From: Magnetococcales bacterium
GTDB taxonomy: Bacteria > Pseudomonadota > Magnetococcia > Magnetococcales > UBA8363
DNA length: 48,910 nt
Direction of reading: 5' to 3'
Assembly: GCA_002753515.1 (NCBI GenBank)
Contig: PEAK01000028.1
Coordinates: 1 to 48,910, forward strand
Numbering within the stretch: the stretch's first letter is position 1; every line of letters begins with the position of its first letter. The translations under genes were made by a program, and so were the position numbers. Positions 27,066 through 32,640 of the stretch are shown in pieces. Under the pieces are notes generated by a model. That model worked only from the letters and a program-made list of their open reading frames with translations, ran no database searches and was not told the DNA's origin.

Positions 27066-27226
27066 TTAATTCTACTTTGTCACATTAGAATATACGCTCT
27101 GGATCCCCGCTTTCGCGGGGATGACGAAGCAGAAAATCCGTTGAAAAAAGGTAACCGTCATTCCCGCAAAAGCGGGAATCCAGAGGCCACAAACTCCGAA
27201 CTGGAAATGTGACAAAGTAGAATTAA
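27066..27226. repeat. MITE-like element, type 2 (perfect 21-bp terminal inverted repeats), copy F
   Basis: A 161-bp element whose first and last 21 bp are perfect inverted complements; the core of the left end is AATTCTACTTTGTCACATT and of the right end AATGTGACAAAGTAGAATT. These ends differ from the TAAACCGC ends of type 1. The inside, however, carries the same two hairpins, ATCCCCGCTTTCGCGGGGAT and ATTCCCGCAAAAGCGGGAAT. It lies 17 bp beyond the 3' end of the PIN-like gene. Confidence 0.93.
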
Positions 27227-27242
27227 TAAATCTTGCATGGGC

Positions 27243-27725
27243 TCATGTCCCTGTGTCGTAACCGGATAGATCCATATCCAAGGACCAGATTCGCACGCGA
27301 GACATCGGGTGACGACTCTTGGTTCGTTCCCACTCTTTAATTGTGGAGAGATCAACCAAACTGACCCCTTCCCGTGACTTCTGGGATGATTTGCTGCGCA
27401 TGGTCGCATCAGGAAACGCATCAAGCCATTCAAGAAACTCTGTCTGTGTCGGAAAGTGGGTGGGACGATACGGAGCATCGCCCTTGACTGCCATTTTCAC
27501 ATCGCCAACAAGCTTTTTCGCATAAAGACGTCGAATTTTCCCGTCTCTTAAATCGGCGATATGATTGCCAGTTTCCCAAATCGATGCCAAAGGAAGCAAA
27601 AAGAAATTGCCAAATTGAACGCAATTTTCAAACTCATCAAGCACGATGTGACGGTCTTGATTGAAACTAGGCACGTCCAGTACGTTGAGGTATATGGATG
27701 TATCAAGCAGGATGATCACACTCAT
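27243..27725 (-). CDS. PIN-like nuclease candidate, partner of the upstream ATPase
   Basis: A 160-residue protein. IILLDTSIYLNVLDVP at the N-terminus matches the first PIN motif with an Asp near residue 8. Further acidic positions fit the PIN pattern: Glu in ASIWETGNHI, Asp in VSLVDLSTIKEWE and Asp in IWSLDMDLSGYD near the C-terminus. PIN domains are metal-dependent RNases, often toxins. Its ATG overlaps the stop of the ATPase gene (ATGA), so the two are one translational unit. No VapB-like antitoxin is present; the ATPase may play the controlling role instead. The PIN call rests on motif pattern only. Confidence 0.65.
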   Translation of the reverse strand: MSVIILLDTSIYLNVLDVPSFNQDRHIVLDEFENCVQFGNFFLLPLASIWETGNHIADLRDGKIRRLYAKKLVGDVKMAVKGDAPYRPTHFPTQTEFLEWLDAFPDATMRSKSSQKSREGVSLVDLSTIKEWERTKSRHPMSRVRIWSLDMDLSGYDTGT

Positions 27726-29056
27726 GGTTCACACCCCTGCCGCAGGCTTTCCAACCAAGCAAGTGCTTTGGTTTTGCGGTCTGTATCAACACATGGCTGT
27801 TTGACGAAGCGTTCCAATACGACATGGGACACCAGTTCACCCAGGGAACCTTGCGCCACAAGCCCTGGGTAATCTGGCACGTCCTGTAGACGCACAAGTC
27901 GGCTCGATCCCTCTTTGGGATCGCGGTAGCAAAATACGACATCCGGCAAAGCCGAATCCGGCAGTGCATCAAGCAGGGCTGGGTTGTGGGTGGAGAGAAG
28001 CACTTGCAGTCCGCGTCGTTTGGCAATGGACTGGATCTTGTCAATCAGACGATTGGCGCGGCTGGGGTGTACACCATTATCGATTTCTTCTATAACCACC
28101 AAGCTGCCTGCTGGGGCTGAGAGCAAGGCAGCGGCTATTGATAGTACCCGCAAAGTTCCGTCCGACAGCAGCGATGCGTCATAATTGTGCTTTTTATCCC
28201 CGAAAGTTTCTGTGAGTTGGACCATTACCCCTCCTCGCGGTTCTTCGATGAAGGATAAGTTGGTGATTTTCTGCTCTGGTAGATTCTGAATAAAGGCTAA
28301 AATATCTTTCCGATTTTGATCGTTATTTTTATTTGTTTTATCCTTACCCCAAAGATTATACAGTACGGCAGAAAGATTTCGTCCATCGCTTTGCAGAGAG
28401 GTTTCAGAGGGAAAGGTATAATCCCTCATCCGATTGGGCGCAGGATCAAGAAACAATATGGCCGATAGCTGTACTCCAATCTGTTTTGTAACGGGTGGGA
28501 TCAGTTTCTTCGACTCGCGATGGTTTGCGAAAATGGCCGGCGTGGTCAACTGTGTGAAAATGGCCATCTGGTCTGTGCATGTGACACGAGGTTTATTGCG
28601 TCCCCTTACAAAGTTGTTGTAGGCCACACTCACATCGGTACCAGGGCTGACTGATGGCTGATCCAGCACGTAGAGCGGCACGGATGCGTGTGGATGCGTG
28701 AGCGTTTCAGCAATAATGTGCAAACCATTGCCACGATGACTTAGGGTCATTGTCAGCCGGTTCCATTCGGGTTCATTCGTTTCGACACCCAGGCCGAACG
28801 ATTGATTGCGCGACTCTTTGCGATCAAATACCAGATCCCCTATCGTACCGCGCACCACCCGATCACCGTTCTGCACCGCGTACTGGATTGCTGATAGGTT
28901 TTGTTTTTGTGCCAACCACCCGAGCAAGCGTACACCTTCGATGGCATTACTCTTACCCGAGGCGTTCGCGCCTATCAGTACAGTGAGCGACGAGAGCGGC
29001 AGGCGTGCCTGTTGTCGATAGCTTCTGAAATTTTTCAACGTGATGGCAGCGAGCAC
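27722..29056 (-). CDS. AAA15/AAA21-type (OLD/SMC-like) ATPase, first gene of a two-gene module
   Basis: A 444-residue protein starting at GTG with AGAGGAG eight to ten bases upstream. ITLKNFRSY and LTVLIGANASGKSN (Walker A, residues 29-36) open the ABC-like ATPase. LLSDGTLRVLSIAAALL is the signature motif, SLVVIEEIDNGVHP near residue 324 is Walker B, and LLSTHNPALLDAL is the switch histidine. There is no Toprim domain at the C-terminus, unlike OLD proteins. Related ATPases work in phage defence with a nuclease partner (for example Septu, PARIS, Gabija). Here the partner is the PIN-like gene overlapping by 4 bp. The pairing is seen; a defence function is inferred. Confidence 0.88.
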   Translation of the reverse strand: MLAAITLKNFRSYRQQARLPLSSLTVLIGANASGKSNAIEGVRLLGWLAQKQNLSAIQYAVQNGDRVVRGTIGDLVFDRKESRNQSFGLGVETNEPEWNRLTMTLSHRGNGLHIIAETLTHPHASVPLYVLDQPSVSPGTDVSVAYNNFVRGRNKPRVTCTDQMAIFTQLTTPAIFANHRESKKLIPPVTKQIGVQLSAILFLDPAPNRMRDYTFPSETSLQSDGRNLSAVLYNLWGKDKTNKNNDQNRKDILAFIQNLPEQKITNLSFIEEPRGGVMVQLTETFGDKKHNYDASLLSDGTLRVLSIAAALLSAPAGSLVVIEEIDNGVHPSRANRLIDKIQSIAKRRGLQVLLSTHNPALLDALPDSALPDVVFCYRDPKEGSSRLVRLQDVPDYPGLVAQGSLGELVSHVVLERFVKQPCVDTDRKTKALAWLESLRQGCEP

Positions 29057-29251
29057 AAGTTTTCTCCTCTTGAGCGGATTTGGGCCGTTGGTATTTGCGG
29101 TTAGCCAATGTCCGCCTTTTCAGGGATTCAATAGCTCTCCAGACGGGAGGTTTATTACAGAGCAATCGATTTTTGAATGTGGATATTGTAGGACGTATGA
29201 CGTGAAGGGTCCATACCCTTTCATATGTTATTGTCATCCAATTGTAATGCG

Positions 29252-29357: not shown

Positions 29358-30176
29358 ATGGCGGCGACTCCCATATCCATGTCTGAACTGTCCGTACCCA
29401 CTCCAATGGTCAAGGATGGGTTTGTGCGCACAGCGGCATCAAGCGGGAAAAAACAATTTTCCCAACATCTTAACCAAGCCATGGAAGCAAGGAACATCGT
29501 CCCGTCCCCCATGCTGGCGGAACGATCATCGGCGCGAACCCGGGTGAATCCCTTTGTGGAAGCGGTGATGGTCGCTTTGAAACATGCCAAGGAAATGCGC
29601 ACCATGCCTTTGACACCCGACATGGCGAACGTGGACAGTGCCGGTTTGCGAACCAACAATTGGCCGTCTACAGCGGCGGCAGTGTTGGATACCTCGTATT
29701 CCGGGAGCGGCATCGTCCCCGGACGTCCCATCAAGCCACAGGTCTCGGCCCAGGATATCACCCCCAAAACCTGGGCGGGCAATGGCGGCGGGAAATACGA
29801 GGGGATCATTCAAAAGGCTTCCAAGGCGTATGGGGTGGATGCCGATCTGATCCGCTCGGTGATCAAGGTTGAAAGCAGTTTCAATCCCAAGGCGGTATCA
29901 CCCTCTGGTGCCATGGGGATGATGCAGTTGATGCCGGCGACCGCCAAAGATCTCGGGGTGAAAAATCCCTTTGATGCGGAACAAAACATTATGGGTGGTA
30001 CGGCCTATCTGAGTCGGTTGCTGGATCGCTATGATGGCAATGTCCGTTCGGCGTTGGCGGCCTACAACTGGGGCATGGGCAACCTGGAAAAGAAACCTGT
30101 GGCGGCGATGCCCGGGGAAACCCGGCAGTACGTTTCCCGCATCATGGGCATGATGGAGGGCGACGCGCCTGCATAA
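29358..30176 (+). CDS. Lytic transglycosylase (SLT domain) without a signal peptide
   Basis: About 272 residues from MAATPISMSELS; an in-frame ATG at 29295 would add 21 residues. Residues about 155-265 form an SLT domain: catalytic E172 (VIKVESSFNPKAVS), GAMGMMQLMPATA, AYLSRLLDRYDGN and ALAAYNWGMGN. It cleaves peptidoglycan glycan strands to form anhydro-muropeptides. The N-terminal 150 residues are disordered and have no signal peptide or lipobox. That resembles lytic transglycosylases exported by the flagellar or type III route, but no flagellar gene is adjacent. It is divergent from the ATPase/PIN operon. Confidence 0.85.
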   Translation: MAATPISMSELSVPTPMVKDGFVRTAASSGKKQFSQHLNQAMEARNIVPSPMLAERSSARTRVNPFVEAVMVALKHAKEMRTMPLTPDMANVDSAGLRTNNWPSTAAAVLDTSYSGSGIVPGRPIKPQVSAQDITPKTWAGNGGGKYEGIIQKASKAYGVDADLIRSVIKVESSFNPKAVSPSGAMGMMQLMPATAKDLGVKNPFDAEQNIMGGTAYLSRLLDRYDGNVRSALAAYNWGMGNLEKKPVAAMPGETRQYVSRIMGMMEGDAPA

Positions 30177-30282
30177 GGGGTGCATGGGGGTGGTTGGGAG
30201 CTGGGCTATTTGCAGCTTTTGATTGCTCAGCCATGACCATTTCAATGGTTGTTATTGGTTGGGCCATTGCATTGCAAAATTG

Positions 30283-30326
30283 AGCGAGCCAGGTGGCGAG
30301 GGCGTCATTGATCCACCCGGCTCGCT
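30283..30326. other. Long imperfect hairpin
   Basis: AGCGAGCC-A-GGTGG (30283-30296) pairs with CCACC-C-GGCTCGCT (30313-30326): 13 base pairs with one mismatch around a 16-base loop. No T-run follows on the plus strand. It could be a transcription terminator of uncommon form or a structured RNA between the transglycosylase and the next gene. Confidence 0.5.
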
Positions 30327-30414
30327 TAAGTTTGACGCGCATGGACCCTTTATATGGAGCCGTTTGCCTGGGATGGGAGCTTTGTAGTATGGTGGTGCAA
30401 GAGGAGAATTAACA

Positions 30415-30654
30415 ATGACCACCATCTCGTTTGATACCCTCATCAAGACCCTCAAATCTGCCGGTTTTGAAAAAAGGCAGGCAGAAGCACAGACCGAGCT
30501 TTTGGAGCAAGTGGTCAGTGATCACGTTAAAGAGTTGGCGACCAAAAGGGATATCGCCGAACTCAAAGCCGAAACCATCCAATGGATGTTCGGGGTGGCA
30601 ACGGGCCAAGCCATGTTCATCATCGCTATTCTCAAGATGTTTCCATCGCGTTGA
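30415..30654 (+). CDS. Small coiled-coil protein with C-terminal membrane anchor (DUF1640-like)
   Basis: A 79-residue protein with AGAGGAG upstream. TISFDTLIKTLKSAGFEKRQ, the coiled-coil segment TELLEQVVSDHVKELATKRD, and the tail membrane helix WMFGVATGQAMFIIAILKMF match the order seen in small bacterial DUF1640/CCDC90-type proteins. Function unknown. It is a single gene in the accessory region and ends about 80 bp before a strong promoter. Confidence 0.75.
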   Translation: MTTISFDTLIKTLKSAGFEKRQAEAQTELLEQVVSDHVKELATKRDIAELKAETIQWMFGVATGQAMFIIAILKMFPSR

Positions 30655-30735
30655 CAAAGCCAAGCAGGGGCAACGATGGTCGTGGCCCATTGCAATTTTG
30701 AAAGGCAATGGCCCCATTGTTACCCGATCTTTGTA

Positions 30736-30764
30736 TTGACAACAGCTACACGTTACCGTATGAT
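30736..30764 (+). promoter_or_regulatory. Strong sigma-70-type promoter for the TacA/TacT pair
   Basis: TTGACA (30736-30741), a 17-bp spacer and TATGAT (30759-30764). The palindrome ATGCGCAT (30763-30770) overlaps the -10 and start region and is a candidate operator for autoregulation by the antitoxin. The antitoxin ATG is 39 bp downstream. Confidence 0.7.
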
Positions 30765-30802
30765 GCGCATATCTTTTATGTATTTGCATGAAGGAGAAAG
30801 TC

Positions 30803-31072
30803 ATGCGCAATGCCTCCATCAACCTGCGTGTCCTTGCCGAGCAACGGGATCTGATCGATCAGGCAGCACGGTTGACTGGAAAAAACCGCTCAGACTTCAT
30901 GCTCGAAGCCGCTTGTGACAAAGCCCGGGCGGTGGTACTTGACCAAGTTTTTTTCCGGCTGGATGACGACAAATTTCGGCAGTTCACGCAGTTATTGGAT
31001 GCACCGCCAACCGACAATTCCGGGCTTGAGCGTCTTATGGCGGTTCAAGCTCCCTGGGATGTGAAAACATAA
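30803..31072 (+). CDS. tacA: TacA-type (DUF1778) ribbon-helix-helix antitoxin
   Basis: 89 residues starting MRNASINLRVLAEQRDLIDQ. AAGGAGAAA precedes this ATG, so the in-frame ATG at 30788 is not chosen. NLRVLAEQRDLIDQAARLTG and KNRSDFMLEAACDKA are the N-terminal DNA-binding part of DUF1778 antitoxins; the C-terminal part (FFRLDDDKFRQFTQLLDAPP) is the toxin-neutralising arm. The toxin gene starts 5 bp after the stop. Repression of the palindrome-bearing promoter upstream is expected from the family. Confidence 0.9.
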   Translation: MRNASINLRVLAEQRDLIDQAARLTGKNRSDFMLEAACDKARAVVLDQVFFRLDDDKFRQFTQLLDAPPTDNSGLERLMAVQAPWDVKT

Positions 31073-31077
31073 AAAGC

Positions 31078-31587
31078 ATGGGTTTGCAACTTGGCGCACC
31101 CGAACCTTTATCGGCCTTGCATTGTTTCAAGGATTTTGCGTGTGGCGAGGTTGTACTGGACGAATGGCTTAAACGATGGGCCATGGCTAACCAGTTGAGC
31201 GGGGCCAGTCGCACGTTTGTTGTAACCGGCCAGGACAACCGTTGCTTTGGATATTATGCCATGGCAGCCGGTGCCGTCACACATTCCATGGCAACGTCTT
31301 CGGTGCGACGCAATATGCCGGAGCCAATCCCGGTGATGGTGCTGGCACGACTTGCTGTAGATCTTCGTGCCCAAAAAATCAAACTGGGTGCGTCATTGTT
31401 ACGGGATGCTGTCAGTCGGGCTATTGCGGTGTCTGACAACGCGGGGGTCAGAGCCTTATTGGTGCATGCCATTCATGACCGTGCCAAGCAGTTTTATGAG
31501 CATTATGGATTCCAAGTGTCACCCGTACATCCCCTGACCCTCATGTTGCGCTTGAACAGTGGGGCGATTGCAGTTAAAAACGTGTGA
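31078..31587 (+). CDS. tacT: TacT-type GNAT acetyltransferase toxin
   Basis: A 169-residue protein. ALHCFKDFACGEVVLDEWLK is the typical TacT/DUF1778-partner opening; VMVLARLAVDLRAQKIKLGA is the acetyl-CoA-binding region and AKQFYEHYGFQ carries the conserved Tyr. Family members acetylate aminoacyl-tRNA and stop translation. It sits 5 bp behind its antitoxin, a standard type II order. A palindromic element starts 3 bp after the stop codon. Confidence 0.9.
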   Translation: MGLQLGAPEPLSALHCFKDFACGEVVLDEWLKRWAMANQLSGASRTFVVTGQDNRCFGYYAMAAGAVTHSMATSSVRRNMPEPIPVMVLARLAVDLRAQKIKLGASLLRDAVSRAIAVSDNAGVRALLVHAIHDRAKQFYEHYGFQVSPVHPLTLMLRLNSGAIAVKNV

Positions 31588-31590
31588 TGT

Positions 31591-31767
31591 TAAACCGCAG
31601 CTATCTTGGGATGTGTAGTTATTGTCATCCTCGCCCCCGATTAAAGCATTCGAGGGCAGGCTTCAGCGGGGATCCAGATGACTTTCCTACCTCCCCTGAC
31701 TTTCTGGATTCCCGCTTTCGCGGGAATGACACTGGAAAACTACGTTTCCCGTGTTGGTTGCGGTTGA
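31591..31767. repeat. MITE-like palindromic element, type 1, copy G
   Basis: TAAACCGCAGCTATCTTGGG to GTGTTGGTTGCGGTTGA; the right terminal TTTA has become TTGA. It includes one enlarged-apex hairpin (GCCCCCGATTAAAGCATTCG) and one short-loop hairpin ATTCCCGCTTTCGCGGGAAT. It separates the two toxin-antitoxin pairs. Confidence 0.9.
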
Positions 31768-31793
31768 ATTCAATATGTTTCCCAACGAGCGCC

Positions 31794-31822
31794 TTGAAAA
31801 CTATCTCACTTAGTGTTATATT
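31794..31822 (+). promoter_or_regulatory. Near-consensus promoter directly in front of the RelE/HigB-like toxin
   Basis: TTGAAA (31794-31799), a 17-bp spacer and TATATT (31817-31822), each matching consensus at 5 of 6 bases. Transcription would start near 31829, only a couple of bases before the ATG at 31831, so the mRNA would be almost leaderless. No ribosome-binding site is visible before the ATG, in agreement. Confidence 0.65.
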
Positions 31823-31830
31823 TCCTGGCG

Positions 31831-32211
31831 ATGAGAGTATTCAAAAACAAATGGTTCAACCGTTGGGCACTGGGCGAGGGCATCACGGATGCCAACTTGC
31901 GGAATGCGGCGCTGGAAATTGTTGCTGGGATGGTTGAGGCGGATCTTGGCGGCTATTTGTTCAAGAAGCGTCTGGCACGGGTGGGGAAGGGGAAAAGCGG
32001 CGGCTACAGAACGATTGTCGGCTACCGCAAAGCTCATTCTGACCGTCTTGTTTTTCTCTATGCTTTCCCCAAAAACGCGAAGGGGAACATTTCGAGCAAT
32101 GAGGAAGCCGCCTTGAGCCTTGCCGCCGAAAAATTTCTGAATGCGACGAATCAACAAGTCAACGCGCTGGTGGCGGACGGTGTGATTTGGGAGGTGAAAG
32201 GCGATGAGTGA
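31831..32211 (+). CDS. RelE/HigB-superfamily toxin
   Basis: 126 residues starting MRVFKNKWFNRWALGEGITD. GGYLFKKRLARVGKGKSGGYRTIVGYR and RLVFLYAFPKNAKGNIS are the hallmarks of a RelE-like mRNase subfamily whose toxin precedes an HTH antitoxin. The in-frame GTG at 31813 lies inside the promoter and is rejected. The stop overlaps the antitoxin start by 8 bp. Confidence 0.88.
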   Translation: MRVFKNKWFNRWALGEGITDANLRNAALEIVAGMVEADLGGYLFKKRLARVGKGKSGGYRTIVGYRKAHSDRLVFLYAFPKNAKGNISSNEEAALSLAAEKFLNATNQQVNALVADGVIWEVKGDE

Positions 32212-32506
32212 AATTCTGGATATTGCCCACGACATGGCCCGCGACTTGGTGAAGGTCGGCGCTATGGACGACATCACCATGCACAAGCTGAACGCACTGT
32301 GCCTGCCGACGAAGCTGTCCCTGAAGCCGGACGACATCCGGCGCATTCGCACGACGAATCATGTGAGCCAAGCTGTCTTTGCGGCGTTTCTCGGCATCGG
32401 CAAGACAACAGTGCAGCAATGGGAGCGAGGGCAGAAAAAGCCGAGCGGTCCGGCACAACGGCTACTTGATCTCATTGATCGCAAAGGGTTGGCTGTGCTT
32501 GGCTGA
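32204..32506 (+). CDS. HigA-like helix-turn-helix antitoxin
   Basis: A 100-residue protein. The N-terminal helical arm (ILDIAHDMARDLVKVG) probably contacts the toxin; the C-terminal XRE-type HTH spans about 52-95 (VSQAVFAAFLGIGKTTVQQWERGQKKPSG). It overlaps the toxin gene by 8 bp. The toxin-first order matches higBA-type systems. It is likely an autorepressor of the promoter at 31794. Confidence 0.88.
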   Translation: MSEILDIAHDMARDLVKVGAMDDITMHKLNALCLPTKLSLKPDDIRRIRTTNHVSQAVFAAFLGIGKTTVQQWERGQKKPSGPAQRLLDLIDRKGLAVLG

Positions 32507-32571
32507 ATAGTCCATTGTGTCCCATGTTTGCCCCTTCCGCCCCTCAGCAAAGGCTTCGGGTTGTGGCGGTA

Positions 32572-32600
32572 TTGCCTTTTTGCAGGTGACGGGCTAGCAT
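32572..32600 (+). promoter_or_regulatory. Candidate promoter of the aromatic amino acid operon
   Basis: TTGCCT (32572-32577), a 17-bp spacer and TAGCAT (32595-32600), each 4 of 6 to consensus. A start near 32607 would leave the GTG at 32611 almost leaderless, while the TTG at 32641 would keep its own AAAAAGGGG site. Confidence 0.35.
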
Positions 32601-32640
32601 ACCCATTGGGGTGTTCAACCTTAAAAAGGGGTGCCTGCGT

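Follow-up and report, generated by a model that had tools for sequence, protein, structure and literature searches.

Identity and organization of the locus

To which kind of system does a Magnetococcales operon belong in which the gene of an ABC-type ATPase runs directly into that of a small PIN-like protein? A preliminary description of the window (the whole stretch of DNA analyzed, 48,910 nucleotides) had presented this pair as a candidate undescribed defence or toxin system. Judged from its sequence, the locus is instead a stand-alone, intact member of PDC-M07, a candidate system of PADLOC-DB 2.0. It comprises the following features:

27722..29056, minus strand: PDC-M07A, 444-aa ABC-type (OLD/AAA_21-AAA_15) ATPase with a GTG start, proposed sensor/gate (PADLOC, Pfam, AlphaFold)
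29057..29075, minus strand: Shine-Dalgarno-like AAGAGGAG located 5' of the ATPase GTG start (minus-strand sequence)
27243..27725, minus strand: PDC-M07B, 160-aa PIN-fold protein, proposed RNase effector with acidic residues D8, E51, D125 and D150 (PADLOC, AlphaFold, Foldseek, alignment)
27722..27725, minus strand: ATGA stop/start overlap of the ATPase and PIN genes, indicating translational coupling (sequence)

Both proteins matched the PDC-M07 profiles at full length, the ATPase to PDC-M07A with an E-value of 6.9e-187 (residues 1-440 of 444 on profile positions 1-429 of 432) and its partner to PDC-M07B with 3.1e-62 (residues 1-158 of 160), and no difference in the proteins was apparent. The earlier statement that no named system corresponds to the pair could therefore not be upheld, while its coordinates, start codon and gene overlap were all correct. 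What distinguishes the window copy is that it stands alone, without a restriction system beside it.

The ATPase ORF is intact (29056..27722, minus strand), and its GTG start is preceded by the strong Shine-Dalgarno sequence AAGAGGAGAAAACTTGTG. Pfam detected AAA_21 (2e-29) and AAA_15 (9e-21) and neither a Toprim nor a DUF4435 domain, and no fused nuclease domain was found by Pfam or in the AlphaFold model. The protein carries a Walker A motif (GANASGKS), a signature motif (LLSDGT), a Walker B motif (VVIEEIDNG) and a switch histidine (STHNP). In alignments of 48-58 homologues, Walker A, the LSDG signature, Walker B with its catalytic glutamate and the switch histidine were invariant or nearly so, in agreement with the initial assignment of a GTG-started, Toprim-free AAA15/21 ATPase with all of these motifs. 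The AlphaFold model (pLDDT 91.9, pTM 0.90) exhibited its best similarities among solved structures to SMC/Rad50 heads and to PtuA of Septu and retrons, and the top profile match in the PDB was the OLD-family endonuclease 6p74.

Fold and active site of the small partner protein

The PIN identity of the 160-aa protein was visible in the fold search only, as no Pfam or NCBIfam family matched it and a sequence-profile search of the PDB returned no meaningful PIN match. An AlphaFold model built from an alignment of 61 homologues (pLDDT 92.1) retrieved with Foldseek a set of best PDB matches that were nearly all PIN domains of the FitB/VapC type, with probabilities of ~1.0, TM-scores of ~0.5-0.6 and ~11-17% identity at modest E-values (best 1.4e-3). 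The protein is thus predicted to have a PIN fold. Residues D8, E51, D125 and D150 were invariant in the alignment of the 61 homologues; on the model, D8 follows strand 1, E51 lies in helix 3, D125 opens a later helix, and D150 comes just past the strand formed by residues 143-147, a placement on the modelled elements that is the PIN layout. The structure prediction proposed as a check in the preliminary description hence came out in favour of a PIN-like second gene product, as did the four acids at PIN positions of the model. In a wider set of 75 sequences at least three of the four acids were retained in all but one, and only three rows departed from the pattern: an Anabaena plasmid copy (D8Y), the truncated L007, and L010.

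The Magnetococcales PIN partner in L010 (1501-1980), in which two of the four acids are gone (E51V and D125S), is from its sequence perhaps an inactivated effector; the ATPase beside it scores as a full-length family member. The PIN active site of the Anabaena cylindrica plasmid copy (L017, 6001-6483) carries D8Y, while a near-identical Dolichospermum copy keeps D8.

Pairing and distribution of the two genes

A scan of approximately 85,000 species genomes identified 124 relatives of the PIN protein, 80 of which were kept. In 80/80 of these loci, which derive from several bacterial phyla, the ATPase gene was located immediately upstream of the PIN gene on the same strand, with a few of the ATPases broken, and a pairing retained this strictly is not due to chance. 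The co-occurrence in other genomes on which the preliminary description had staked its reading is therefore borne out. The genes overlap by 4 nt in 32 and by 8 nt in 30 of the 80 loci (together 62). A reverse survey of ATPase relatives in 398 genomes of the phylum gave the same picture, since all seven matches above 560 bits were accompanied by the PIN gene; more distant ATPases were solitary or had other partner proteins. Hosts of the pair include Pseudomonadota, Cyanobacteriota, Chlorobiota, Myxococcota, Thermodesulfobacteriota, Bacteroidota and Acidobacteriota. Its distribution is very patchy, with the pair occurring in 14 of the 398 genomes of the phylum.

Among the more distant relatives, five Magnetococcales genomes (L110, L111, L112, L113 and L119) encode a related ATPase that has no PIN partner (ORF at ~1495-2793 of the oriented locus). 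In most of these copies the glutamate of Walker B, the switch histidine or both are altered (for example VVDDIEHTVYP and GRDPALLD versus VIEEIDNGVHP and STHNPALLD), and Walker A is largely intact, so that they apparently represent a conserved derivative with impaired ATPase function. The PIN-less ATPase adjoins Sel1-repeat-like and TatD-like genes in two of the genomes. Distant PDC-M07A-like ATPases in L118 (946-2810) and L125 (1450-3380) are followed by a protein of 190-200 aa (M-ILVI-EDF-KDQ...) without recognisable PIN character, which may serve ATPases of this class as an alternative effector. These partners, considered for a DUF4276/Toprim-like family, gave no match in Pfam (both) or PADLOC (L118).

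Association with restriction-modification systems

In 11 of 85 loci the ATPase-PIN pair (A-B) was sandwiched within a type I restriction-modification operon. Ten of these (L018, L019, L023, L039, L048, L052, L055, L066, L082 and L091) exhibited the gene order hsdM-hsdS-A-B-hsdR, and L025 the order hsdR-A-B-hsdM-hsdS. The key Hsd assignments were checked with Pfam (L025 and L039 included), those in L018 and L019 against the record annotation. Further loci had adjacent Hsd or BrxL genes or an incomplete operon at the edge of a contig, and in all 21 loci with Hsd/BrxL genes these shared the strand of A-B. HsdS accounted for 8 of the 120 nearest neighbours versus at most 1 of the 100 genes in the outermost positions of the loci, where every family with at least two members was recorded. 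Because the pair lies inside type I operons in 11/85 loci, the defence reading is well supported, and the pair is very likely a phage-defence module, if still a candidate one; the defence association suspected at the outset is strengthened accordingly.

The window copy has close relatives of this restriction-linked kind in L022, L023 and L025. Its own contig carries no restriction system or type I genes, which makes a guard role in cis impossible for this copy; the type I systems of this genome are located on two other contigs.

Embedding in restriction operons, combined with an ATPase whose fold is closest to SMC heads and PtuA, would also suit a DNA-targeting restriction factor, with the ABC ATPase scanning or clamping foreign DNA in the manner of SMC-like heads and the PIN protein nicking it as the HNH nuclease of Septu does, and some PIN-superfamily nucleases cut DNA. 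This DNA-cutting factor is the main rival to an RNase effector. We nevertheless consider it unlikely, given that the PIN protein is closest to FitB/VapC-type PIN domains, whose characterized members are mostly RNases, and that Pfam found no DNA-binding domain in either the ATPase or the PIN protein.

Genomic neighbourhood and mobility

The window copy looks horizontally acquired. The pair was absent from all seven congeners, and in the ATPase tree the window copy is placed apart from the main Magnetococcales group, in a supported group of 13 rows with Methylophilaceae, Ozemobacter, Thiomonas and others. The G+C content of the module is 50.1%, versus 55.1% for the window. The module coincides with a break in synteny: collinearity with the sister genome G001 (96% nucleotide identity) extends as far as 27042 and is then lost, and with the congener G007, which also lacks the toxin-antitoxin block at 30176-32640, it resumes only from 29334; comparison with these two genomes showed no clean empty site. 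Plasmid-borne copies of the pair exist, and restriction-embedded ones include a Vibrio campbellii plasmid copy and a copy from Ozemobacter. No homologue of the PIN protein was present in phage records, so its gene is not a common phage-borne one.

A housekeeping RNA-processing pair without a defence role, to which the broad phyletic range and the conserved active site might point, is very improbable in view of the patchy occurrence, the lack of the pair in the congeners, the plasmid-borne copies and the insertion into restriction operons.

The surroundings of the module contain three further elements:

27066-27226, no strand assigned: MITE bounded by perfect terminal inverted repeats of 21 bp, located 16 bp downstream of the stop codon of the PIN gene, a neighbour outside the system
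30788-31587: TacA1 + GNAT toxin-antitoxin pair (profile matches)
31813-32506: RelE + HTH toxin-antitoxin pair (profile matches)

The accessory zone with two toxin-antitoxin pairs and the adjacent MITE, both part of the original description, were thereby confirmed. The MITE is ~161 bp long, its inverted repeats start with TTAA, and ~36 near-full-length copies with 81-100% identity are present in the genome. Palindromic units of the GGATCCCCGCTTTCGCGGGGATGAC type lie within it and were observed in shorter matches as well. The toxin-antitoxin block (30176-32640) is missing from the congener L141, in which only ~220 bp separate the flanking SLT and pheA genes, so that within the genus the block has been either gained or lost.

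Two toxin-antitoxin pairs nearby, copies on plasmids, overlapping genes and a VapC-like fold could all suggest that the pair is itself a stand-alone toxin-antitoxin or addiction module, in which A neutralizes the PIN toxin B and the pair retains itself or a mobile element. We judge this to be improbable, and a plain toxin-antitoxin module to be less likely than a DNA-cutting factor. Antitoxins of type II systems are small and bind DNA, whereas the partner here is a 444-aa ATPase, the invariant catalytic motifs of which point to ATP-driven sensing, and same-strand embedding in restriction operons likewise speaks against addiction. VapBC and FitAB have the effector fold in common with the present pair, but combine it with a small VapB/FitA-like antitoxin where a large ATPase is found here in 80/80 loci. 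With an ATPase as the partner and no gene for a small DNA-binding antitoxin present, a toxin-antitoxin system in the VapBC sense is not supported.

Comparison with known systems

PARIS (AriA/AriB) is likewise a two-gene combination of ABC ATPase and nuclease and shares the AAA_15/AAA_21 ATPase class. However, the AriA profile fitted the ATPase far worse than PDC-M07A did (E 3e-28 versus 7e-187), and AriB is a Toprim/DUF4435 nuclease while the fold here is PIN; no AriB/DUF4435 effector was detected at the locus by Pfam or PADLOC. PtuA of Septu and retron PtuAB is among the closest solved structures to the ATPase, but PtuB is an HNH nuclease, and the small partner protein gave no HNH match in Pfam or in the fold search. 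Gabija consists of an ATPase-fused Toprim and a UvrD-like helicase, in contrast to the Toprim-free ATPase and 160-aa PIN partner described here. PrrC of EcoprrI couples a nuclease to a gating ATPase inside a type I restriction operon, an arrangement shared by the restriction-linked PDC-M07 relatives; in PrrC and RloC, on the other hand, a HEPN-type nuclease is fused to the ABC ATPase, PrrC being a one-protein anticodon nuclease, whereas the PIN protein of PDC-M07 is separate.

Family and design were both already on record, considering the PDC-M07 entry in PADLOC-DB 2.0 and the pairings of OLD-ABC ATPases with PIN nucleases in PMC12839542, so that the novelty first ascribed to the ATPase-plus-PIN arrangement does not hold. 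That study (2026, on BREX) reports OLD-ABC ATPases with alternative nucleases including PIN from 594 taxa and describes, adjoining BREX, OLD-type ABC ATPases that have a PIN endoRNase as partner instead of Toprim. It proposes such ATPase-nuclease pairs as backup suicide effectors and cites earlier reports of OLD-ABC proteins coupled to various nucleases in restriction-like systems. We liken the present pair to these dyads on the basis of its combination of OLD-type ABC ATPase and PIN nuclease; the dyad members described there are BREX-linked. According to PMC12988326, the PDC candidates were obtained through guilt-by-embedding screening (Payne et al. 2024 preprint, doi 10.1101/2024.01.29.577857). 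Within a literature search whose coverage left out preprints and most subscription journals, neither an experimental test of PDC-M07 nor a paper naming it was found.

The DefensePredictor PIN systems DS-3 and DS-5 were also considered as the same thing and rejected, their architecture being different. The effector of DS-5 is reported to be non-toxic alone and to require its partner for activity (PMC13092281).

What the locus adds is one intact, horizontally acquired PDC-M07 copy in Magnetococcales.

Proposed mechanism and implications

By analogy, we favour as reasonably probable a reading in which this PDC-M07 copy is a one-operon abortive anti-phage defence with an ATPase sensor gating a PIN RNase. 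The ATPase (A) would oligomerize on ATP and hold the PIN protein (B) inactive until it recognizes a cue of infection, which may be an anti-restriction protein; in many relatives the cue would plausibly be interference with the restriction-modification system that embeds the pair. The PIN nuclease would then be released or activated and presumably cut host RNA (tRNA, rRNA or mRNA), and growth and phage production would stop, amounting to abortive infection. On the other hand, PIN domains can act on DNA too or be structural. The sensing and gating role assigned to the ATPase is drawn from PrrC in EcoprrI and from PARIS, in which, as stated in PMC12839542, the OLD-ABC ATPase AriA responds to Ocr as a sensor and sets free a nuclease that cuts tRNA.

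A more specific form of this proposal, which we put forward tentatively and with some doubt, is that PDC-M07 is a restriction-guarding abortive system whose ATPase detects anti-restriction activity of phages and unleashes the PIN RNase, with stand-alone copies such as that in the window guarding restriction systems in trans. If this guarding role is true, the same logic would be realized through a third nuclease fold, beside Toprim (PARIS) and HEPN (PrrC). The repeated insertion into the hsdS/hsdR interval makes an anti-restriction protein as the trigger directly testable. If the sensor-and-effector mechanism holds, three unrelated nuclease folds (Toprim, HEPN and PIN) would have been recruited behind ABC ATPase sensors in restriction-linked bacteria, and an ATPase that senses combined with a swappable nuclease that kills would be a general design.
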